Made by a program: the position numbers and the translations under genes. Of a stretch of 64,000 nucleotides of DNA, positions 993-9,224 are shown piece by piece. The number at the start of each line of letters is the position of its first letter. The stretch's first letter is position 1. Origin of the DNA: Streptomyces roseochromogenus subsp. oscitans DS 12.976 (GTDB lineage: Bacteria; Actinomycetota; Actinomycetes; Streptomycetales; Streptomycetaceae); assembly GCF_000497445.1 (NCBI RefSeq), contig NZ_CM002285.1, positions 3,959,447 through 4,023,446 on the forward strand, written 5' to 3'. The notes beneath the pieces were generated by a model. That model was not told where the DNA came from, searched no databases, and was given only the letters and a program-made list of their open reading frames with translations.

Positions 993-1538
993 CTATTTCA
1001 CCTTGGGTTCCAACAGCTCCAGGGCCTCCTCCCACCGGAACCGGTCCGCCCCGCCGCCGACCCTCGGCTTGTGCGGTTCACACGAGCCGATCATGACGCC
1101 CATCCCCCGCAACCGCTCCAGGCTCTGCTCGTAGGCCGGGTGAGCGGCCTGGGCTGAGTTCAGGTAGGGCAGTGCCACGGTTGGTATGCCCATGCCGTAC
1201 GCCTCGCACAGGATGCCCAGGGCAAGGGTGTCGGATATCCCGGTGGCCCATTTGTTGATCGTGTTAAAGGTGGCCGGGGCGACCGCGATGGCGTCTGCGG
1301 GCGGCAGTGGGCGAGGGTCCCCCGGCGAGCGCCAGGCGGAGCGAATCGGGTAGCCGGTCTGTGCCTCGACCGCCTTCGCGTCGATGAAGCCAAGGCCCTG
1401 CGGCGTGGCGATGACACCGACGTCCCAGTTCGCCTCCTGCGCAGCGGTGATCAGCTTGCCGACGTCTCGGGCAACGCCGGCCGCACAGACGACGACGTAC
1501 AGGAAGGGCTTCTTGTCCGTTGCGGTCGGTTCGGTCAC
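993..1538 (-). CDS. Flavoprotein, phosphopantothenoylcysteine decarboxylase-like (HFCD fold)
   Basis: A 181-residue single-domain protein. It begins with a Rossmann-like strand (FLYVVVCAAGVARDVGKL), and a conserved segment PATFNTINKWATG matches the FMN-contacting region of the homo-oligomeric flavin-containing Cys decarboxylase family (Dfp/CoaC, EpiD). The usual substrate-clamp motif PxMNxxMW is not evident; LPYLNSAQAAHPAYE stands near where it would be, so decarboxylase activity is uncertain. The GTG start at 1538 overlaps the stop of the upstream regulator (GTGA), which implies translational coupling; reading further upstream gives low-complexity Arg/Pro sequence typical of an out-of-frame extension. 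It is probably an accessory enzyme or redox partner to the regulator and the divergent nucleotide cassette. The role is inferred from position only. Confidence 0.8.
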   Translation of the reverse strand: MTEPTATDKKPFLYVVVCAAGVARDVGKLITAAQEANWDVGVIATPQGLGFIDAKAVEAQTGYPIRSAWRSPGDPRPLPPADAIAVAPATFNTINKWATGISDTLALGILCEAYGMGIPTVALPYLNSAQAAHPAYEQSLERLRGMGVMIGSCEPHKPRVGGGADRFRWEEALELLEPKVK

Positions 1539-2812
1539 GCGGGGACTCCCAGTTGGCGGCTGAAGTGGTGCAGTTCCGGCAGCGTACGACGGCGGTCCCG
1601 GGCGGCCATATCGGCGACCAGGTGGCGGACGTCGGGGCGGCGGATGTCCTGGGCGGCGCAGGTCTCGGCGATGCGCAGGGCCTGGTATCCGTCGGCGAGG
1701 CGGCCCTGCTGGCTGTAGGCGCGGGCCGCCTCCACCCACAGGGCGGCGCGTCGCTCGGGGACGGGGATGTGCCGGCGCATGAGAGGGCGGGCCGCCTGGA
1801 GGGCGAGGCCGGCGTCACCGAAGGCCACCAGGGCGCTCAGCTCGTGCAGGGCGACATTGGTCGGGCTGAAGGTGGCCCAAGCGTCGGGCCGGTCCAGGGT
1901 GACGTACCGGGAGACTTCCTTGGCCTCGGTGAGGAATTCCTTCGTGGCCGCGCGATCACCGCGGCTGCTGGCCGCGGTCACACCGCGCAGGAGCAGCAGT
2001 CCTACGGCGGCGAGGTACTTCGGAGAGCGCCGGTCGTAGGAACCGGTGAGCTGGTCAGCGGTGTGCCGGACGAGAGTGACGGCTTCGTTCGTGTGCCTCT
2101 CGCGGACCAGGACGTGGGCCTGCACGCGCACGCTGGAGGCGAGAACCACCGGGTCACCGGAGCGTTCGGCCTCGGCCATGGCCCGGCCGACGGCGAGCCA
2201 GGCGTTGCCCTGGTCGTGTTGCTTGAGCAGCAGGCTGGTCGCGGTCTGGTACGCCGTGGCCAACAGCCCGGACACCGTATCCCTGTCCGTCGTGCCGCTG
2301 GAGGCCAGCCGCAGGTCGGCGATCAGGTCGGGGAGGGTGCGCTCCAGCTCTGTGTAGTTGCAGGTGTGGAAGAGGCTGAGCGCTGCCCCGACCCGATCGT
2401 GCAAGACGAGAGTGTCCAGGGCGCGTCCGGTCTCCGTAGGTCCCTGTCCCGGTCCCGGCAGGAGAGCCTGGACAAAGTCCACATGCGCGGCGGCAGATCC
2501 GGCAGGGGTAGCGAGGGCGGCGATGCTGGCGGTGAGGAAGGTACGGCGGTGCATGTCGTCAGCTTCGGGATCGATGGCGGGGTCGTCCTGGATGGGAGCG
2601 AGTCCCAACTGATCTGTCGGGATGCTCAGTTCCTGCGCGACGGCGCGTAGCACGCGGATGTCCTCCGTGCCGCGACCGCTCTCCAGACGGCTCACCTTGG
2701 ACTGGTGATAGCCGAGCGCCGCGGCCACGTCTTTCTGTGAACGCCGCTGTAAGACACGCGCGCGGCGGATCTCTTCGCCGATCCGTCTCGCTTCCCCATG
2801 AGCATCGGCCAT
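1535..2812 (-). CDS. XRE-family transcriptional regulator with C-terminal TPR-like region
   Basis: A 425-residue cytoplasmic regulator. An N-terminal helix-turn-helix (about residues 10-65, including RRSQKDVAAALGYHQSKVSR) is typical of the Cro/CI-XRE family. The rest is alpha-helical with TPR-like repeats, as in actinobacterial regulators that sense peptides or small ligands. ATG at 2812 was chosen because GGAAGGAG lies just upstream; an in-frame upstream ATG would add 52 residues of unlikely sequence. Its 3' end overlaps the flavoprotein gene, and the pair is divergent from the operon starting at 2988. It is therefore the obvious candidate to bind the palindrome at 2885-2899 and control both directions. 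The ligand is unknown. Confidence 0.85.
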   Translation of the reverse strand: MADAHGEARRIGEEIRRARVLQRRSQKDVAAALGYHQSKVSRLESGRGTEDIRVLRAVAQELSIPTDQLGLAPIQDDPAIDPEADDMHRRTFLTASIAALATPAGSAAAHVDFVQALLPGPGQGPTETGRALDTLVLHDRVGAALSLFHTCNYTELERTLPDLIADLRLASSGTTDRDTVSGLLATAYQTATSLLLKQHDQGNAWLAVGRAMAEAERSGDPVVLASSVRVQAHVLVRERHTNEAVTLVRHTADQLTGSYDRRSPKYLAAVGLLLLRGVTAASSRGDRAATKEFLTEAKEVSRYVTLDRPDAWATFSPTNVALHELSALVAFGDAGLALQAARPLMRRHIPVPERRAALWVEAARAYSQQGRLADGYQALRIAETCAAQDIRRPDVRHLVADMAARDRRRTLPELHHFSRQLGVPA

Positions 2813-2987
2813 CTGCCACGGCTCCTTCCGCCGTCGCTGATCCTGCCTGCTCAATCGAGCATAGATCAGGCGTACTTGGCGGTGATGCAGCTCCTGCATA
2901 AGCAATGCAGCGCCCGCACCCGGACTAACCACCGACCGCGATGGACTGGTTGCGTGAAGTGGCCGCACCTAGTTCGGGAGGCCGCTC
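2813..2987. promoter_or_regulatory. Divergent promoter region with candidate operator palindrome
   Basis: This intergenic space separates the XRE regulator and the HATPase-led operon. ATGCAG-CTC-CTGCAT at 2885-2899 is a perfect 6-base inverted repeat with a 3-base spacer, and a further ATGCAG half-site lies at 2905-2910. The spacing and position fit an autoregulatory operator for the XRE protein. No convincing -35/-10 pair was identified. The plus-strand gene starts with GTG at 2988, preceded by GGGAGG (about 2974-2979). Confidence 0.4.
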
Positions 2988-3428
2988 GTGGAAGCGCACC
3001 AGCTCACTCTTTCCCTACCCGCTCAGCCTGCCTCGGTCACGGCCGCCCGGCACCAGGCCGTGGTCGCGATACAGAACTGGGACGAGGGACTGGGCACCGA
3101 AGTGGTCCACACCGCGGAGCTGGTGATCAGCGAGTTGGTCGGGAATGCGGTGCGGCACGCAGACTCCGGCCCGGTCTCCCTTGCAGTCCTGCTGATCGAG
3201 GACGTCCTGCGTGTCGAGGTCTGTGACGCCAGTCCCACGCTGCCGCAGCCTGCTTTGCCGGATGCGCACAGCGAGAGCGGCCGGGGTCTGTTCCTCGTCG
3301 CCGCCCTCGCCGACCGGTACGGCGCCGAACCAACCCCTACCGGCAAGCAGTGCTGGGCCGAGATCACTCTGGCCGGCAGTCCGGACCAGGCGTCCGCCGT
3401 CTTCCTACCCCTGCAGAGGAGTTGCTGA
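2988..3428 (+). CDS. HATPase-domain (anti-sigma/RsbW-like) ATP-binding protein
   Basis: A 146-residue protein of the small GHKL ATPase type found widely in Streptomyces, related to SpoIIAB/RsbW serine kinases. The N-box reads ELVGNAVRHA (about residue 47), and the G-box region includes SGRGLFLVAALADRYG. There are no sensor or membrane segments, so it is cytoplasmic. The start is GTG. The stop overlaps the next start by one base (TGATG), making it the first gene of a translationally coupled operon. In Streptomyces such proteins are commonly paired with XRE-type regulators, which fits the divergent gene at 1535-2812. The partner sigma factor or regulator is not evident here. Confidence 0.8.
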   Translation: MEAHQLTLSLPAQPASVTAARHQAVVAIQNWDEGLGTEVVHTAELVISELVGNAVRHADSGPVSLAVLLIEDVLRVEVCDASPTLPQPALPDAHSESGRGLFLVAALADRYGAEPTPTGKQCWAEITLAGSPDQASAVFLPLQRSC

Positions 3429-4687
3429 TGCCGACCACCCCGCCCTCTCTAACGGCCGCCGAGGTGATCGCCGTACGGCCCGGCCCGCCGCTGACCGGCA
3501 CCGTCGCGGTCGACGGTTCCAAGAACGCCGCGCTCCCCCTGCTGGCCGCCGCCGCAGCGCTCGACCTGATCCAGCAGGCTGGATGGCACGTCGCACAGCC
3601 GGTCGGAGAGCCCACCACTGCGGTGATCGTGCCGGCCGAGAGCCGGCGGTCACTCCCGGAGCTGCCCACAGCCGCCCATATCCGGGCCTCCTACTACCTG
3701 GTACCGGCCTTGCTCGCCCGCTACGGAGAGGCTCGGCTGCCGGGGCCGGGCGGCTGCCGCATCGGCGCACGAGGGATGGACCTGCACTTCAAGGTATACG
3801 AGGCGTTCGGCGACCGGAGCCTGGTGGACGACTCCGGATACCGCATCGAGTCCGGCACACCGCGCACCGGCACCGTCTCTCTCGTGCTGCCGTTCCGCTC
3901 GCGCGGTGCGACGGTGGTCGCCATACTCCGCGCCGTCACGACCGGACGACCGCTGCGGCTGGGCGAGCCCAACCCCTCGCCGGAAGTCCTGTGCGTGCTG
4001 GACGCCCTGAACCAAGCGGGCTGGGAGGGCCGGGCTGGCGAACGCCTGATCACCCTGTCGCCACCGTGCTCTGCCTCGAATGACACCGAGTGGGTAGTGC
4101 CAGGAGACAAGGTCGAAGCAGGAACGCTGGCGTGCGCGGTCGCCACCACTGGCGGTATCGGGCGCATCGAGGGCGCACAGGCCGAAGACATGAGCCCTCT
4201 CGTGGCGGCTCTGCGCCGATTGGGGATCTCCGTCAGCAATGAGGCGAACGCTCTCACCGTGAACGCCGAGGACGGGCGTACGACCGGCCGTCCTCTGCGG
4301 GCGATCGCCTCGCTCATCCCCGGCGGCCTGGACGCCGATTTCGAGCCACCGCTCATGGCACTGGCCCTCGGTCTGCCCGGCACCCACCTGTTCGCCGACT
4401 CGATCAACCCCGGCCGACACGGCAATCTGCTGCCCCAGCTGGCCCGTCTCGGCGCCGGCATCGAGGAGATGTCCCCCACCGAGTGCCGCCTCACCGGACC
4501 CCAGCACCTGATCGGAGCAGGGGTGGAGGCCACCGACATCCGCACCGGCTCCGCCCTCATGGTCGCCGGCCTCACGGCTCAAGGCGTCACCACCCTCGGT
4601 GGCCTCGACCAGCTCCGCCGTGGCCACGCCGACCTGCCCGGCAAACTTCGCACCCTGGGCGCCGACATCTGCGAGGTCACGCCATGA
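3428..4687 (+). CDS. MurA-like enolpyruvyl transferase (EPSP synthase superfamily)
   Basis: A 419-residue protein, the same length as E. coli MurA (UDP-N-acetylglucosamine 1-carboxyvinyltransferase). Visible MurA hallmarks are DGSKNAALPLL near the N-terminus (the catalytic Lys-Asn pair), RASYYLVPALLARYG, then PGGCRIGARGMDLH with the active-site Cys, and DIRTGSALMVAGL near the C-terminus with the conserved Arg. The segment that in MurA reads ENRF is changed (NPGRHGN), so the acceptor may not be UDP-GlcNAc. The gene sits in a nucleotide-processing operon and not with cell-wall genes. Enolpyruvyl transfer to a nucleotide is known for NikO/PolA in nikkomycin and polyoxin biosynthesis, which offers an alternative role. 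It overlaps both neighbours (TGATG upstream, ATGA downstream). Confidence 0.85.
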   Translation: MPTTPPSLTAAEVIAVRPGPPLTGTVAVDGSKNAALPLLAAAAALDLIQQAGWHVAQPVGEPTTAVIVPAESRRSLPELPTAAHIRASYYLVPALLARYGEARLPGPGGCRIGARGMDLHFKVYEAFGDRSLVDDSGYRIESGTPRTGTVSLVLPFRSRGATVVAILRAVTTGRPLRLGEPNPSPEVLCVLDALNQAGWEGRAGERLITLSPPCSASNDTEWVVPGDKVEAGTLACAVATTGGIGRIEGAQAEDMSPLVAALRRLGISVSNEANALTVNAEDGRTTGRPLRAIASLIPGGLDADFEPPLMALALGLPGTHLFADSINPGRHGNLLPQLARLGAGIEEMSPTECRLTGPQHLIGAGVEATDIRTGSALMVAGLTAQGVTTLGGLDQLRRGHADLPGKLRTLGADICEVTP

Positions 4688-5922
4688 CCGTCCACGCCCG
4701 GCGCCAGATCGTGGCAACCACAGACGTCCACTCCGCCCTGGCCAACGCCGCACCTTTCCTGACCCACCTCTGTGCTCTCCGTCCGACCTCGCTCACCGTG
4801 GACTGTGGGGACTTCTTCGAAGGCAGCGGCTACTACCGCATCGCACAGGGCGAGATCGAGCGGAAGATCCTCCTCAAGCTGTACGACGTGTTGGCGCCTG
4901 GCAACCACGGCTGGCCCCACTACTTCGAACCCGATCTTCACCGACGCACGGTCTGCGCCAACGCCGTCAACGCCGAAACCGGCGACGCGCTCTTCCTCCG
5001 TCTACGCATCGCCGACATCAGCGAACGCCGTGTGGGTGTGACCTCCGTGATCGGACAGCAGGCATTTCACTCGATCCCCGCAGCTCAGCGAACCGGCCAC
5101 CACGTCACCGATCCCGTACAAGCTCTGCATGAGCTGACGCTCGCCCACCAGCACAGGGTGGACAGCTGGGTCCTGCTGAGCCATTCCGGGTTCGAGGAGG
5201 ATCTCAAGCTGGCGTCAGCCTGTCCGTTCCTCGACGTGATCTTCGCCGGGCACTGCCACAGCGACCAGTACGGCCCGGTTCGCGTCGGTGACACCCTCGT
5301 CGTAAAGGGGCTCGAACTCGCGAAGGGCTATGCGATCGCCACGCCCGTCGGCGCGGGATGGGGCGCCGGTACCACCCGCTTCCCGGACCGCACCCCAGGC
5401 GCCGTTCCCATGGAACTCGCGGACGTGACGGCACACATCGACGAAGTCAGCGCGCAACTGCGCGACGTCCTCGGACCAGTCCGGACCGCCTACCGTCACC
5501 AGGTGCCTGACCGGCATGACCTGCTCGTGGACCTCGTTGCCCGCCTGCGCACAGGACTCGGCGCGGGCGCGGTCATCCTCAACGAGACCGCGCTGCGCAC
5601 CGTCCCACTCGGCGACGCCCTCGCCCTGAGCGACCTGCTCTCCATCGAGCCGTTCGGCAACCAGTTGGTGCACGCCCACGTTCCGGAGACGGAGCGCTGC
5701 GACGTCCGCGGCCTGCTCTCACGTCTGACCGCCCAGACCGGCCCGCTCGTTACCGCCCCCGATCCCCTGCCGGACGCCATCACCACCGTGCTGACCACCG
5801 ACTACCTCGCCGACACCTACCTCGGCGGACGCACCCACGAGGCCGGCCTGCGCCTGGACCAGGCCATCCAGCACGTTCTCACCGCTCGATTCCCCGACAT
5901 CGCGGATGGAAGCAGGGAATGA
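4684..5922 (+). CDS. 5'-nucleotidase/UshA-family metallophosphatase
   Basis: A 412-residue two-domain protein. The calcineurin-like metal-binding motifs appear in order: TTDVHS, DCGDFFEGS, GNHG (the usual GNH[DE] has Gly here), LSHSG and AGHCHSD (GHxH). The C-terminal half has the 5'-nucleotidase substrate domain signature, with LNETALRTVPLGDALALSD followed by IEPFGNQLVHAHV. No signal peptide is present, unlike secreted UshA, so it should act on intracellular nucleotides or a phosphorylated pathway intermediate. ATG at 4684 overlaps the MurA-like stop (ATGA), and its own stop overlaps the next gene (ATGA). The substrate is not known. Its placement between an enolpyruvyl transferase and dCTP deaminase-like proteins suggests dephosphorylation of a modified nucleotide. 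Confidence 0.85.
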   Translation: MTVHARRQIVATTDVHSALANAAPFLTHLCALRPTSLTVDCGDFFEGSGYYRIAQGEIERKILLKLYDVLAPGNHGWPHYFEPDLHRRTVCANAVNAETGDALFLRLRIADISERRVGVTSVIGQQAFHSIPAAQRTGHHVTDPVQALHELTLAHQHRVDSWVLLSHSGFEEDLKLASACPFLDVIFAGHCHSDQYGPVRVGDTLVVKGLELAKGYAIATPVGAGWGAGTTRFPDRTPGAVPMELADVTAHIDEVSAQLRDVLGPVRTAYRHQVPDRHDLLVDLVARLRTGLGAGAVILNETALRTVPLGDALALSDLLSIEPFGNQLVHAHVPETERCDVRGLLSRLTAQTGPLVTAPDPLPDAITTVLTTDYLADTYLGGRTHEAGLRLDQAIQHVLTARFPDIADGSRE

Positions 5923-6458
5923 TCCTCACCGGCCCCGAGATCGCGGCAGCCGCTCATGACGGCCGCCTCCGCATCTCTCCCTTCGCCGCCGACCAGGTCA
6001 ACCCCAACAGCTACAACGTCCGACTCGGCCCCACCCTGATCACCTACACCGGCGAGGTCCTTGACGCGCACCGCCCCAACCCCACCCGGAAGACCACCAT
6101 CGGACCCGACGGGCTCGTCCTCCAGCCCGACGAGCTCTACCTCGGCCACACCCTCGAAGAAGTCGGCTCGGACACCTTCGTCCCCCTGCTCTTCGGCCGC
6201 TCCTCCGTCGGCCGGCTCGGCCTGTTCGTCGAGATCACCGCCCCCATCGGCGACATCGGCTTCCACGGCCAGTGGACGCTGATGCTCACCCCGACACGAC
6301 CGCTGCGCGTGTATCCGGGGATGAAGATCGGGCAGATCATGTTCTTTGTCTCCACCGGCACCATCGACCTCTACTGCGGCAAGTACCAGGCCGCCGCCGG
6401 ACCACAGCCCTCTGCCTACTGGCGCGACGTCGCCGAACTTCGGGTGGTGGCTTCGTGA
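5919..6458 (+). CDS. dCTP deaminase/dUTPase-family protein, paralog 1 (catalytic Glu missing)
   Basis: A 179-residue protein of the trimeric dUTPase-like fold, close to the usual size of about 190. It aligns well with actinobacterial dCTP deaminase: NSYNVRLG (normally SSIDVRLD), FGRSSVGRLGLFVEITAP (motif 2 intact, with the phosphate-binding Ser-Ser and Arg), GDIGFHG (Asp of motif 3 kept), YPGMKIGQ and CGKYQ. At the position of the general-base Glu (E138 in E. coli, in the context TLEL) it reads TLML, so Glu is replaced by Met. Taken alone it should bind nucleotide but not deaminate. It overlaps the phosphatase upstream (ATGA) and its sister downstream (GTGA). It may work as a heteromer with the next gene or as a nucleotide sensor. 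These alignments are by eye. Confidence 0.85.
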   Translation: MILTGPEIAAAAHDGRLRISPFAADQVNPNSYNVRLGPTLITYTGEVLDAHRPNPTRKTTIGPDGLVLQPDELYLGHTLEEVGSDTFVPLLFGRSSVGRLGLFVEITAPIGDIGFHGQWTLMLTPTRPLRVYPGMKIGQIMFFVSTGTIDLYCGKYQAAAGPQPSAYWRDVAELRVVAS

Positions 6459-6991
6459 TCCTCACAGGACCCGGCATCGCCGCCGCCATCCAGGCCAGCG
6501 AGATCACCATCGATCCGTACGACCCCACCCGTCTCTCTCCGAACGCCTACGACTGGCGACTCGGCGACACGCTCCGCGTCTGCGACGGTGACCTTGACGC
6601 TGCCGCACCAACCCCCTTCGCCGAACAGTCGATCCCCGCAACCGGCCTGACCTTGCGACCCGGACCGCTCTACCTCGGCGTCACGCTGGAGAGGACCGGC
6701 TCCGAGACGTACGCACAGATACTCAATGGCGACCGCACCATCGGCGCCCTGGGCATCTGGGTCCATGTCTCCGCACCGCTCGGCCACCAGGGTCACGCGA
6801 TCCGCTGGACGCTGGAGATCCGCGTCGCCAGGCCCGTACGGGTCTATCCCCAGATGACGTTCGGCAAGCTCGTCTTCCTCCGCTGCCTCGGCACGCCGGC
6901 CAGCTACCAACTCCACGGGCGGAAGTACATGGCGAGCGACGGCATCGACATCTCGCGCCTGTACGAAGAGATCCCGGGAGGCAGGACGTGA
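6455..6991 (+). CDS. dCTP deaminase/dUTPase-family protein, paralog 2 (motif 2 degraded, Glu kept)
   Basis: A 178-residue sister of the preceding gene with the same opening (ILTGPGIAAAI vs ILTGPEIAAAA), so they arose by tandem duplication. Here the residue pattern is reversed: the motif-2 segment reads NGDRTIGALGI, so both phosphate-binding serines and the arginine are gone, and the motif-3 Asp is His (LGHQG). The catalytic Glu is retained in RWTLEIRV. KY of the C-terminal KYQ motif is present. The start is GTG at 6455, overlapping the previous stop (GTGA), which makes the two proteins stoichiometrically coupled; the longer upstream reading is antisense-like Arg-rich sequence. Alone it is unlikely to hold a triphosphate. 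A mixed trimer with paralog 1 could rebuild one site at the subunit interface. Confidence 0.85.
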   Translation: MILTGPGIAAAIQASEITIDPYDPTRLSPNAYDWRLGDTLRVCDGDLDAAAPTPFAEQSIPATGLTLRPGPLYLGVTLERTGSETYAQILNGDRTIGALGIWVHVSAPLGHQGHAIRWTLEIRVARPVRVYPQMTFGKLVFLRCLGTPASYQLHGRKYMASDGIDISRLYEEIPGGRT

Positions 6992-8088
6992 GCCACCTGG
7001 TCGCGACTGCGCTCGACCTCCCTTTCGGCAGCGCCGGCGGCAGCGTCGAACTCTTCCTCGACCTCTACACGGGCCAGAATCCGCTCGTCCCCGCCCAGGC
7101 TTTCATGCTCTCCCCGCAAGCACAGCCGCCCCAGCTGCCCCCCGGATTGGAGCTGCTGCCGGTCCCCGGCAAGTGCCTGGCCGGTGGGCCCTTCACTCAC
7201 TACGTCCACGCCCTGCGCCGGGCCTTGTCACACCGGATCGTCGACCCCGCCGACATCGGCGTACTCCACCTCCAGCACCTCGCCTTCGGCGCCGCCCCCG
7301 CCCTGATCCGTGCCCTGCCCGACCACCCTCGCATCGCCCTCGTCCACGGCACCGACCTGTTGTTCGCCGAAGCGCACCCCGACCAACTCGGCGTCTTACG
7401 AGAGACCACGCGTGCCGCCGACGCAATCGTCGTCCCCACCACAGCGATGTCCGACAGGCTGCTCCGCCTCGCGCCCACCACCGACCGCCGAAAGATCGAA
7501 ACGATCCCCTGGGGAATCCCCGACCACCTGCTCACCAGCCCACCGCCACGACCCGACCACCGGACCACCAGCCATCTCCGCCTGCTGTACGCCGGACGCC
7601 TCACCACCGAAAAGGGCATCGAAGCGCTGCTGCACGCCCTCCCCTTCGCCCAGGCCGCCGAGCTGAGCATCGCCGCCCCGCGCCACCAGTTCCACGCCCT
7701 GGCCCCTCTACTGCGGCCCCTCGGGGCCCAAGTCCGCTACGTGGGCTGGCTCCGCCGCCCCCAACTGTGGAAAACCTTCGCCGATCACGACGCCCTGGTG
7801 ATGCCCTCGACCACCCTCGAAGCCATGGGCCTGGTCGCCCTCGAAGCCCAAGCCTGCGGATTGCCCGTCGTCTACCAGCCCGTTGCCGGACTGAAGGAAT
7901 CCATCGGCGTGAGCGGCCTGGCCACCGACTTCACCAGCCCGACCGCACTCGCACGCGACCTCGAACGTCTCCGGACCACGACCGGCCTGATCGCAGCCCT
8001 TCAGGCAGCAGGACGCGCCAACGCGGCCCGCTATCCGCTCAGCACCACAGCCTCCGCCCTGATCGCACTGGGCAGACAGCTCACCTGA
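6988..8088 (+). CDS. GT4-type (GT-B fold) glycosyltransferase
   Basis: A 366-residue cytoplasmic protein. The C-terminal half has the hallmarks of GT-B/GT4 enzymes: LLYAGRLTTEKGIEALLHAL, then VRYVGWLRRPQLW, and the EX7E motif region in MPSTTLEAMGLVALEAQAC followed by GLPVVYQPVAG. The N-terminal half carries VHGTDLLFAEAHPD in the acceptor domain. The GTG start at 6988 overlaps the second deaminase-like gene (GTGA), so it belongs to the same coupled operon. It probably transfers a sugar from an activated donor to a product or nucleoside made by the upstream enzymes. Donor and acceptor are unknown. Confidence 0.8.
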   Translation: MSHLVATALDLPFGSAGGSVELFLDLYTGQNPLVPAQAFMLSPQAQPPQLPPGLELLPVPGKCLAGGPFTHYVHALRRALSHRIVDPADIGVLHLQHLAFGAAPALIRALPDHPRIALVHGTDLLFAEAHPDQLGVLRETTRAADAIVVPTTAMSDRLLRLAPTTDRRKIETIPWGIPDHLLTSPPPRPDHRTTSHLRLLYAGRLTTEKGIEALLHALPFAQAAELSIAAPRHQFHALAPLLRPLGAQVRYVGWLRRPQLWKTFADHDALVMPSTTLEAMGLVALEAQACGLPVVYQPVAGLKESIGVSGLATDFTSPTALARDLERLRTTTGLIAALQAAGRANAARYPLSTTASALIALGRQLT

Positions 8089-8174: not shown

Positions 8175-9224
8175 ATGGCTTTCGACCTCGACACCGACCG
8201 CATCCACCAGCTCCTCCACGAGGGCGTCCGGGACAAGGTCTACCCCGGTGCCGTCTGGGCCGTCGGGGACGGCACCGGCACCCGGGCCAGCGGCACCGTC
8301 GGCGTTCTGGACCCTGCCCGGCCCAACGAGCCGATGCGTTTGGACACCGTCTTCGACGTCGCCAGCCTCACCAAGATCCTTGCCGTCTGGTCCGCCATCG
8401 GCACTCTTGTCGAGGACGGCAAACTTCAACTCGACGCAGCCCTCGGCGACTTCTGGCCGGGGGTCCACGGACATCCCCTCGCCCAAGTCTCCGCCCGGCA
8501 CCTGCTCACCCACACCGCCGGCGTCCCGCTCCGGGCCAACCTCAAGAATCTTTACGGCACCGATCCCCAGGACGTCCGAGACGGCGTCCTCCACGAAGCC
8601 CTCCACCGCCCACCCGGCCAAGCCGTCGAATACACCGACCGGGCCGCCCTCGTCCTCGGCTACCTCGCCGAGCACCTCTCCGGCAAACCCCTGGACCAGC
8701 TCGCCGGCACTCGCGTCTGGCAACCCCTGGGCATGACCGCCACGCGCTTCGGACCGCTCCCCACAGAGTCCATCGCCCGCTGCGCGCCAACCGAGCTCGA
8801 CGAGAGCACAGGGGCACATCTCAAGGGATCCGCCCACGACTTCTCAGCCCGACTCCTCGGCGGCGTGTGCGGTATCGCCGGCGTCTTCTCCGTACTCGAC
8901 GACCTCGCGGCCTTCCTCCGGTACCTGCTCGACCCCGACCAGTCACCCGAGCGTCCCGGCTTCGGTCCAGCCTGGATCAAACAGTCGCTCCAGATCCACA
9001 CCGGTCAACTCACCCCACTCCGCGGCCTCTTCTGGCATCCGGCGCCGGAGACCACACCCGCCCAGGACTGCTGGGTCCACTACGGCTTCACAGGAACCGG
9101 CATGTGGGTCGCTCCGGCCAATGACCGCTGGGCGGTACTGCTGACCAACAAGCTCTACTACACGCGCGATCGCCAGCCGCTTACCGATGTGCGCAATGCG
9201 TTCCGGGGGATCGCCTTCGCCTGA
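8175..9224 (+). CDS. Serine hydrolase, class C beta-lactamase/DD-peptidase family
   Basis: A 349-residue protein with the SxxK active-site motif in VASLTKILAVW (about residue 62), a YxN-equivalent Tyr in EYTDRAALVLGYLAEHLSG, and a C-terminal HYGFTGTGMW replacing the KTG box, as in esterase/peptidase members of the family. No signal peptide is seen, so it is probably cytoplasmic. That argues against cell-wall DD-peptidase work and for esterase or amidase activity on a small molecule. It follows the glycosyltransferase by 86 bases on the same strand, with GGGAGA before the ATG. It may belong to the same pathway but is not translationally coupled to it. Confidence 0.8.
   Translation: MAFDLDTDRIHQLLHEGVRDKVYPGAVWAVGDGTGTRASGTVGVLDPARPNEPMRLDTVFDVASLTKILAVWSAIGTLVEDGKLQLDAALGDFWPGVHGHPLAQVSARHLLTHTAGVPLRANLKNLYGTDPQDVRDGVLHEALHRPPGQAVEYTDRAALVLGYLAEHLSGKPLDQLAGTRVWQPLGMTATRFGPLPTESIARCAPTELDESTGAHLKGSAHDFSARLLGGVCGIAGVFSVLDDLAAFLRYLLDPDQSPERPGFGPAWIKQSLQIHTGQLTPLRGLFWHPAPETTPAQDCWVHYGFTGTGMWVAPANDRWAVLLTNKLYYTRDRQPLTDVRNAFRGIAFA

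Follow-up and report, generated by a model that had tools for sequence, protein, structure and literature searches.

What can two adjacent copies of a nucleotide-metabolism gene do when each has lost a part of the active site that the other has kept? The question is raised by two tandem genes at 5919..6991 of a 64,000-nucleotide stretch of the Streptomyces roseochromogenus subsp. oscitans DS 12.976 genome (contig NZ_CM002285.1, positions 3,959,447 to 4,023,446; the whole stretch is hereafter the window), which encode paralogues of dCTP deaminase (Dcd) that we call alpha (Dcd1) and beta (Dcd2). Both open reading frames (ORFs), as an initial annotation of the sequence had described them, match the DCD family PF22769 (2.2e-40 for alpha, 1.8e-22 for beta), and their products share 41% identity. 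The GTG start of beta overlaps the alpha stop by 4 bases; we take Dcd2 from this GTG, the program-made ORF list opening its frame farther upstream. We give an about even chance to the answer that alpha and beta together make up a single hetero-oligomeric enzyme of the deoxyuridine triphosphatase (dUTPase) superfamily, which would process a pyrimidine nucleotide in specialised metabolism.

Both proteins have the predicted fold of the family. The AlphaFold2 (AF2) model of the alpha monomer (predicted local distance difference test score, pLDDT, 91.7) has as its top Foldseek match the Bacillus halodurans Dcd-dUTPase 4xjc (template modelling score, TM, 0.88), and the beta monomer (pLDDT 84.5) has the Dcd-dUTPase 4a6a as its top match by E-value (TM 0.85). 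Against the dCTP deaminase model TIGR02274 (EC 3.5.4.13; equivalog cut-off 92.8 bits) alpha scores 94.8, beta 51.2 and the genome's own canonical Dcd (L003) 211.9. The 9.78 Mb genome thus also encodes a separate Dcd that is intact, with Ser-Ser-Arg, Asp and Glu complete, so the alpha/beta pair is extra to the housekeeping enzyme, and an identity of the pair with the housekeeping Dcd was rejected on this ground. A known defence system was rejected as well, the PADLOC models giving no match to the seven operon proteins at E 0.01.

The active-site residues of the family are divided between the two proteins, and this division reaches beyond the genome in which it was first noticed. We read it in type A (the labels A to E are our own grouping), which comprises the best 80 of 125 related loci and gives 81 alphas (80 and the window's) and 80 betas (79 and the window's); these are mutually related, hence not independent events, and their residue columns were set by alignment to L003 and to PDB chains. 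Just as the initial annotation had read from the window, alpha keeps the motif-II Ser-Ser-Arg and the motif-III Asp and carries Met in the column of the catalytic Glu, while beta keeps that Glu and has lost both the Asp, replaced by His, and the Ser-Ser-Arg; in motif IV alpha keeps Gln and beta has Lys (counts in Table 1). At beta column 98 the four commonest residues among the 80 are Ala (46), Ser (29), Cys (2) and Thr (2). Our homologue lists, each the best 120 (of 495, 1431 and 2087 proteins) and including the window's own proteins and some queries, give the same picture: Ser, Ser, Arg, Asp and Met stand in 120/120 best listed alphas, and His and Glu in 120/120 best listed type-A betas, one of which has Arg at the motif-II Arg column. 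The C-terminal KYQ, which in Dcds closes over the nucleotide, is found in 119/120 best listed alphas, and its Gln is gone in 118/120 best listed betas, these columns being read from one automatic alignment. Both chains keep the Ala that corresponds to Ala115 of M. tuberculosis Dcd:dut (80/81 alphas, 80/80 betas, numbering counted from the alignment), a residue that lines the base pocket (PMC5519681, in excerpt).

Neither alpha nor beta therefore carries the catalytic Glu, the motif-II Ser and Arg and the motif-III Asp on one chain; the motif-III Asp, motif II and the motif-IV Gln occur together in alpha (81/81), not in beta. Because a defining residue is missing from each, neither chain alone is a dCTP deaminase by its residues. 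The initial annotation had suggested aligning homologues to learn whether the pattern is conserved, which it is throughout the alphas and betas counted above, and had held that a homologue with all residues on one paralogue would speak against complementarity; none was found among the alpha and beta homologues classified.

The division is also seen in four further cluster types, whose members share 39-51% identity with the window's proteins: type B (L117, L122, L123, L125, L127), type C (L118, L119, L121; three loci in two genomes), type D (one locus, L120) and type E (L124 and L139, two genomes). Alphas of ten of these loci (L117-L125 and L127) all keep the Asp and have Gln in place of the Glu, and S95, R99, the motif-IV Gln and KYQ are present in 10/10, S96 being Gly in two; S95, R99 and the motif-IV Gln are kept in all 130 alphas counted (the 120 best listed and these ten). 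In the betas of the same ten loci the Glu is always present and the Asp always missing. Among the best 120 listed hits of the type B-E beta profile the Glu is again in 120/120, and the Asp column holds Gln in 62, Asn in 19 and His in 39; the 81 Gln or Asn betas all keep Ser-Ser-Arg, whereas the 39 His betas retain neither motif II nor the motif-IV Gln. Nine canonical Dcds (L003, L140-L147) have Asp and Glu both. Loss of Ser-Ser-Arg from the Glu-bearing paralogue, which the initial annotation had made part of the pattern, does not generalise: loss of motifs II and IV is confined to the betas of types A and C, those of types B, D and E keeping both, and for this reason the wider rule is the division of the motif-III Asp and Glu. 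As a separate matter, the L117 alpha (L117:8337-8864) passes the dCTP_deam equivalog cut-off without the Glu (106.7 against 92.8), and the type C alpha of L121 fails it (87.9).

Alpha and beta are both under purifying selection. The ratio of nonsynonymous to synonymous substitution rates (dN/dS) is 0.15-0.29 for both genes in 10 comparisons with relatives, mostly under the values of other operon genes; with this ratio, and with the split conserved over 80 loci, pseudogenes and sequencing error were rejected. In the tree the betas form one branch (support 96/93 without the long-branched L086, 93/94 with it) and those of types A and C group together (100/97); L120 and L086 were flagged as long branches by the tree program. 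The history is most simply read as a single old duplication.

The two genes are also retained together, although their distribution is patchy. Matches were found in 37 of 246 Streptomyces genomes scanned (the window's included), of which 27 hold type A, 5 type B, 2 type C, 1 type D, 1 type E and 1 (G624) a beta fragment only; a rescan with the type B-E beta profile gave 37/246, the same 36 pair genomes and a fragment in G486. A sample of the phylum yielded 3/396 genomes at 1e-20 (two Streptomyces that hold pairs, and the genome of L086), and one of the class 13/394 at 1e-25, of which five have pairs, all Streptomyces, and the other eight hits are canonical Dcds. The best 120 listed betas, where beta alone was read, include Micromonospora, Nocardia, Kineosporia, Saccharothrix and others. 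Alpha lies within 100 bp at 29 of 32 type-A beta loci (a count that omits one 45-residue beta piece, G462:C46:34805-34939), the three remaining loci being a piece at a contig edge next to a partial alpha, the fragment in G624 and a second copy found in G417; in this second copy (L130) the alpha frame is interrupted and the beta frame open. Beta directly follows alpha in 79/80 type A loci, with a 4-base overlap in 77 and a 1-base overlap in 2, and at the exception, L058, the sequence stops just past alpha. In type C, where the starts of the two genes are ~7-10 kb apart, both are retained (3 loci, 2 genomes). The cluster looks mobile, because genes for MobC and a MobA/VirD2-type relaxase lie upstream of the operon in 32/81 sequences (e.g. 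L004:561-2917; counted by crude gene calls in the 80 loci and the window's first 16 kb) and S. hokutonensis yielded three loci (L027, L061, L064). These data make it extremely improbable that the genes are ordinary dCTP deaminase duplicates which give dUMP to housekeeping metabolism and are decaying, as their database names, mostly dCTP deaminase, would have it: a separate intact Dcd is present, neither copy is decaying, and the operon is both patchy (type A in 27/246 Streptomyces genomes) and often preceded by mobilisation genes.

How might two incomplete chains work? We take the motif-III Asp of Dcds to stand in the same column as the catalytic Asp of dUTPases. According to PDB titles, E. 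coli Dcd was crystallised as its E138A variant in the presence of dCTP, and the M. jannaschii DCD-DUT exists as an E145Q variant; we presume both changes to replace the catalytic Glu, and the type B-E alphas have Gln at the very column of E145Q. In M. tuberculosis Dut the catalytic Asp positions the catalytic water, and the Asn variant is nearly dead (PMC5519681, in excerpt). Given these precedents, motif III of alpha should not deaminate and that of beta should not hydrolyse like a dUTPase. The active site of a dUTPase is built across a subunit boundary, with motif III supplied by one chain and motifs I, II and IV by its neighbour (PMC12524310, in the text available), and DCD and DCD-DUT are trimers with their sites in intersubunit clefts, dUTPase motif V being missing (PMC4827122, likewise in part).

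We infer assembly, stoichiometry, substrate and product from this family geometry. A Dcd:dUTPase-like gene would have been duplicated to alpha and beta, the products of which would form a hetero-oligomer, most likely a trimer, to which alpha would contribute motifs II and IV with the C-terminal KYQ and beta the hairpin of motif III that carries the catalytic Glu. By this dUTPase arrangement, contact between alpha and beta would restore a site with the Glu: in type A, alpha (II/IV) with beta (III) would unite Ser-Ser-Arg, Gln and Glu, alpha with alpha would unite Ser-Ser-Arg, Gln and Asp as an Asp-type site, and beta (II/IV) with alpha (III), having no phosphate side, would be dead, so that an alpha2-beta trimer would hold one site of each kind. 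The complex would deaminate and/or hydrolyse a pyrimidine nucleotide to a monophosphate, which the MurA-like enzyme, the 5'-nucleotidase-like phosphoesterase and the family 4 glycosyltransferase (GT4) encoded alongside would then modify in a specialised-metabolite pathway. A heterotrimer that joins motif II of one chain to the Glu of the other had been put forward by the initial annotation, and the idea gains strength because the complement is larger than it noted, alpha also holding motif IV and KYQ and beta having lost the motif-IV Gln. Its own objection, that the motif-III Asp is on the same chain as motif II, is real; however, Asp and Glu both belong to motif III, and the rebuilt site would have Glu with His for Asp. 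On the whole, that earlier interpretation is partly supported.

The same residues could serve two separate, subfunctionalised enzymes, alpha as a homotrimeric nucleoside triphosphate (NTP) diphosphatase and beta as a homotrimeric deaminase or other enzyme, in two steps that replace one bifunctional Dcd:dUTPase. The motif-III Asp does lie on alpha and the deaminase Glu on beta, the B-E alphas carry Gln as does the engineered M. jannaschii E145Q enzyme, the betas of types B, D and E retain both motif II and motif IV, and little dUTPase activity would be expected of beta from the near-dead Asp-to-Asn variant of M. tuberculosis Dut, provided that the column is, as we assume, the same. We nonetheless find this rather unlikely: the A and C betas are without motif II and the motif-IV Gln, so that a beta homotrimer would have no known phosphate-binding side, and beta is nonetheless about as constrained as alpha. 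Could beta instead be a pseudoenzyme that stabilises or tunes alpha, with all chemistry at alpha-alpha sites? Alpha has more of the family motifs and passes the equivalog cut-off, which beta does not; yet the one catalytic residue that beta retains is the Glu, in 120/120 best listed type-A betas and 120/120 of the other best listed betas, and this Glu occurs in none of the alphas counted, which makes the pseudoenzyme very unlikely.

Several points weigh against a shared site. Its geometry is described for dUTPases and is carried to alpha and beta by homology, and the AF2 models are monomers, the heteromer proposal resting on sequence and family geometry; in the beta model the motif-III region is less confident (pLDDT 67 and 74 over residues 101-120). 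By its motifs, a beta homotrimer of types B, D and E would lack only the Asp and KYQ and could act alone, and alpha alone, with motif II, the motif-III Asp, motif IV and KYQ, could work as a diphosphatase by itself. The best tree does not unite the alphas in one clade, a single alpha clade being not rejected (approximately unbiased test, AU, p 0.056), and there may have been two separate duplication events. Finally, a beta-like gene with a short C-terminus in the 3.1 Mb genome of a distant actinobacterium of another family (L086/L131, in G263), whose single chain has Ser-Ser-Arg, His and Glu, has no alpha within the 18 kb fetched.

The genes around the pair are given with their residues in Table 1. 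The HATPase, MurA-like, phosphoesterase, alpha, beta and GT4 genes run with consecutive overlaps of 1-4 bases, and the beta-lactamase-fold gene comes next; counts of neighbours are lower bounds, being based on crude gene calling by G+C content at third codon positions (GC3).

Table 1. Features of the alpha/beta pair and its surroundings in the window, with counts over the type A loci
Feature	Position	Strand	Details
Divergent XRE-type regulator, start codon uncertain	1535..2968	-	PF13560 6e-08
HATPase (anti-sigma-like) regulator, operon head	2988..3428	+	PF13581 7.8e-15
MurA-like enolpyruvyl transferase	3428..4687	+	PF00275 2.2e-23; in 77/80 loci
UshA/5'-nucleotidase-like metallophosphoesterase	4684..5922	+	PDB 5'-nucleotidases 2.7e-06; in 78/80 loci
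Alpha subunit (Dcd1), putative	5919..6458	+	ATG start, 179 aa, dCTP deaminase/dUTPase fold (predicted)
Alpha motif II S95-S96..R99, kept	6201..6215	+	81/81
Alpha motif-III Asp D112, kept	6252..6254	+	81/81
Alpha M122 at catalytic deaminase Glu column	6282..6284	+	Met 81/81
Alpha motif-IV Gln Q139, kept	6333..6335	+	81/81
Beta subunit (Dcd2), putative	6455..6991	+	GTG start, 178 aa, same fold as alpha (predicted)
Beta motif II degenerate (R94-T95..A98)	6734..6748	+	R94 in 77/80
Beta H111 replacing motif-III Asp	6785..6787	+	80/80
Beta E121, catalytic-type Glu, kept	6815..6817	+	80/80
Beta K138 replacing motif-IV Gln	6866..6868	+	80/80
GT4 glycosyltransferase	6988..8088	+	PF13692 3.8e-20; downstream in 79/79 loci holding both dcd genes
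Beta-lactamase-fold serine hydrolase	8175..9224	+	PF00144 1.4e-48; in 73/80 loci

The MurA-like protein scores 201 bits against the MurA equivalog TIGR01072, under its cut-off of 392.7, aligns with MurA at the Gly-Gly-Cys loop and also matches NikO (6.9e-16); by sequence it resembles an enolpyruvyl transferase that is not the MurA equivalog. The phosphoesterase gave no Pfam match at E 0.1, and its scores against SoxB/UshA-like NCBIfam models are far under cut-off. At L077 and L080, a variant that we label A-II, the MurA-like and phosphoesterase genes are both missing and a gene for an AurF diiron oxygenase precedes alpha instead; a HIT protein follows the pair in L077 (by Pfam) and L080 (by clustering), L080 having a HAD hydrolase in addition. 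L128 and L129 resemble these two loci (AurF judged by eye from the opening sequence) and have a cytochrome P450 (P450) family in common with type E. Because A-II dispenses with the MurA-like enzyme and the phosphoesterase and the GT4 gene is always there, the core is alpha-beta-GT4. A scan of the operon for sigma-70 promoters and terminators found none, as expected in such G+C-rich DNA. A flavoprotein-like ORF (window 993-1538, minus strand), judged by eye in the window copy, overlaps the end of the XRE regulator gene; its family has a PF02441 match in the L005 homologue and was clustered in 30/81 sequences.

The HATPase at the operon head and the divergent XRE regulator would suit a pair that is a non-catalytic sensor, binding a pyrimidine nucleotide and controlling pathway enzymes or a repressor, an option that the initial annotation had also raised. 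Phage 80alpha-type dUTPases act as regulators, and such structures are found low in the Foldseek list. We regard a sensor as unlikely, since the invariant positions include residues of catalytic type, the pair is found in clusters with different other genes as well, and a sensor would have no need to keep the Glu and Ser-Ser-Arg on separate chains.

These other clusters carry quite different tailoring genes. In type B (L125) the pair is accompanied by a TauD dioxygenase, a PIG-L deacetylase, WbqC, GT4, a MurG-like glycosyltransferase of family 28 (GT28), a HIT protein, a calcineurin-like phosphoesterase and a proline-tRNA-ligase-like protein, the phosphoesterase and GT4 being related to those of the window (31% and 36% identity, the latter over 277 aa). 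The proline-tRNA-ligase-like protein (L125:4459-6117) is under two equivalog cut-offs (333.7 against 558; 295.5 against 306.7) and may be a resistance copy or a tailoring enzyme that transfers an aminoacyl group. Type C (L118) has a nucleotide-pyrophosphatase-like phosphodiesterase and a P-loop protein between alpha and beta; its alpha forms the N-terminal end of a longer protein of 827 aa that also has PPDK_N and PEP-utilizer domains (L118:6440-8920), and L119 and L121 have the same long alpha frame (~830 aa), clustering with that of L118. Type D (L120) has a P-loop protein related to that of type C (34%), a cytidine-deaminase-like protein and GT4, the cytidine-deaminase-like protein lying directly after the pair (L120:9305-9802; PRK06848 106.6 bits, cut-off 131). 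Type E has a P450, a class-II synthetase-like fusion and a decarboxylase. Because nucleotide- and phosphate-handling proteins recur in types A to D, we place the pair, conditionally, in nucleotide-derived specialised metabolism. A more specific picture is tentative and, taken whole, improbable: the pair would form an asymmetric alpha2-beta heterotrimer with a Glu site of the deaminase type, an Asp site of the diphosphatase type and a third site that is dead, and this heterotrimer would serve as the common nucleotide-processing enzyme for a whole unrecognised group of nucleotide-derived actinobacterial natural products. The five cluster types would then be branches of this group with different tailoring enzymes.

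Among the open-licence PMC papers listed by our searches, none describes the alpha/beta pair, its cluster or a heteromeric Dcd. If the subunits share a site, a homotrimeric enzyme of core metabolism would have become an obligate heteromer by splitting two motif-III catalytic residues between duplicates, and it would become testable how complementary losses lock in complexity, and how far deaminase and dUTPase chemistry are separable in one fold. The pair offers a handle for mining nucleotide-derived compounds in five kinds of actinobacterial cluster. Automated gene naming misleads in this case, since the alphas of the window and of L117 clear the dCTP-deaminase cut-off without the catalytic Glu.

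Among known systems the bifunctional Dcd:dUTPases (M. tuberculosis 2qxx/4a6a, B. halodurans 4xjc, M. jannaschii 1ogh) are the top Foldseek and sequence matches of both alpha and beta, with which they have the fold, length, N-terminal MIL start and motif layout in common; however, a Dcd:dUTPase is one gene and a homotrimer with Asp and Glu on the same chain, whereas in the pair these lie on two genes. The two-domain Dcd of Agrobacterium (2r9q), a Dcd-like match to both models, is fused, at ~330-370 residues. NikO, a PDB match, is a MurA-like enzyme as is the product of the window's gene, but MurA matches are closer; in the NikO pathway, which leads to octosyl acid, UMP is the enolpyruvyl acceptor, and we know of no Dcd pair in nikkomycin clusters. 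Mycothiol is made by the logic of MshA, MshB and MshC, and type B, not the window's type, is reminiscent of it in combining GT4, a PIG-L deacetylase and an aminoacyl-tRNA-synthetase-like protein, although the families differ in detail. The Epstein-Barr virus (EBV) dUTPase, of the same superfamily, has duplicated domains, one of which gives motif III and the other motifs I, II and IV (PMC12524310, in the text available), but it is a single fused chain, where alpha and beta are two chains and the deaminase Glu is involved. The same logic is seen in the phosphopantothenoylcysteine decarboxylase (PPCDC) of yeast, formed by Hal3/Vhs3 and Cab3, where a homotrimer with interface sites has become a heterotrimer whose paralogues carry a complementary Cys and His and make one working site (PMC6168597, in excerpt). 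Its fold and reaction are unrelated, and the heterotrimer is established there where for alpha and beta it is proposed; as with PPCDC, the pair combines complementary catalytic losses that are conserved and co-retained.

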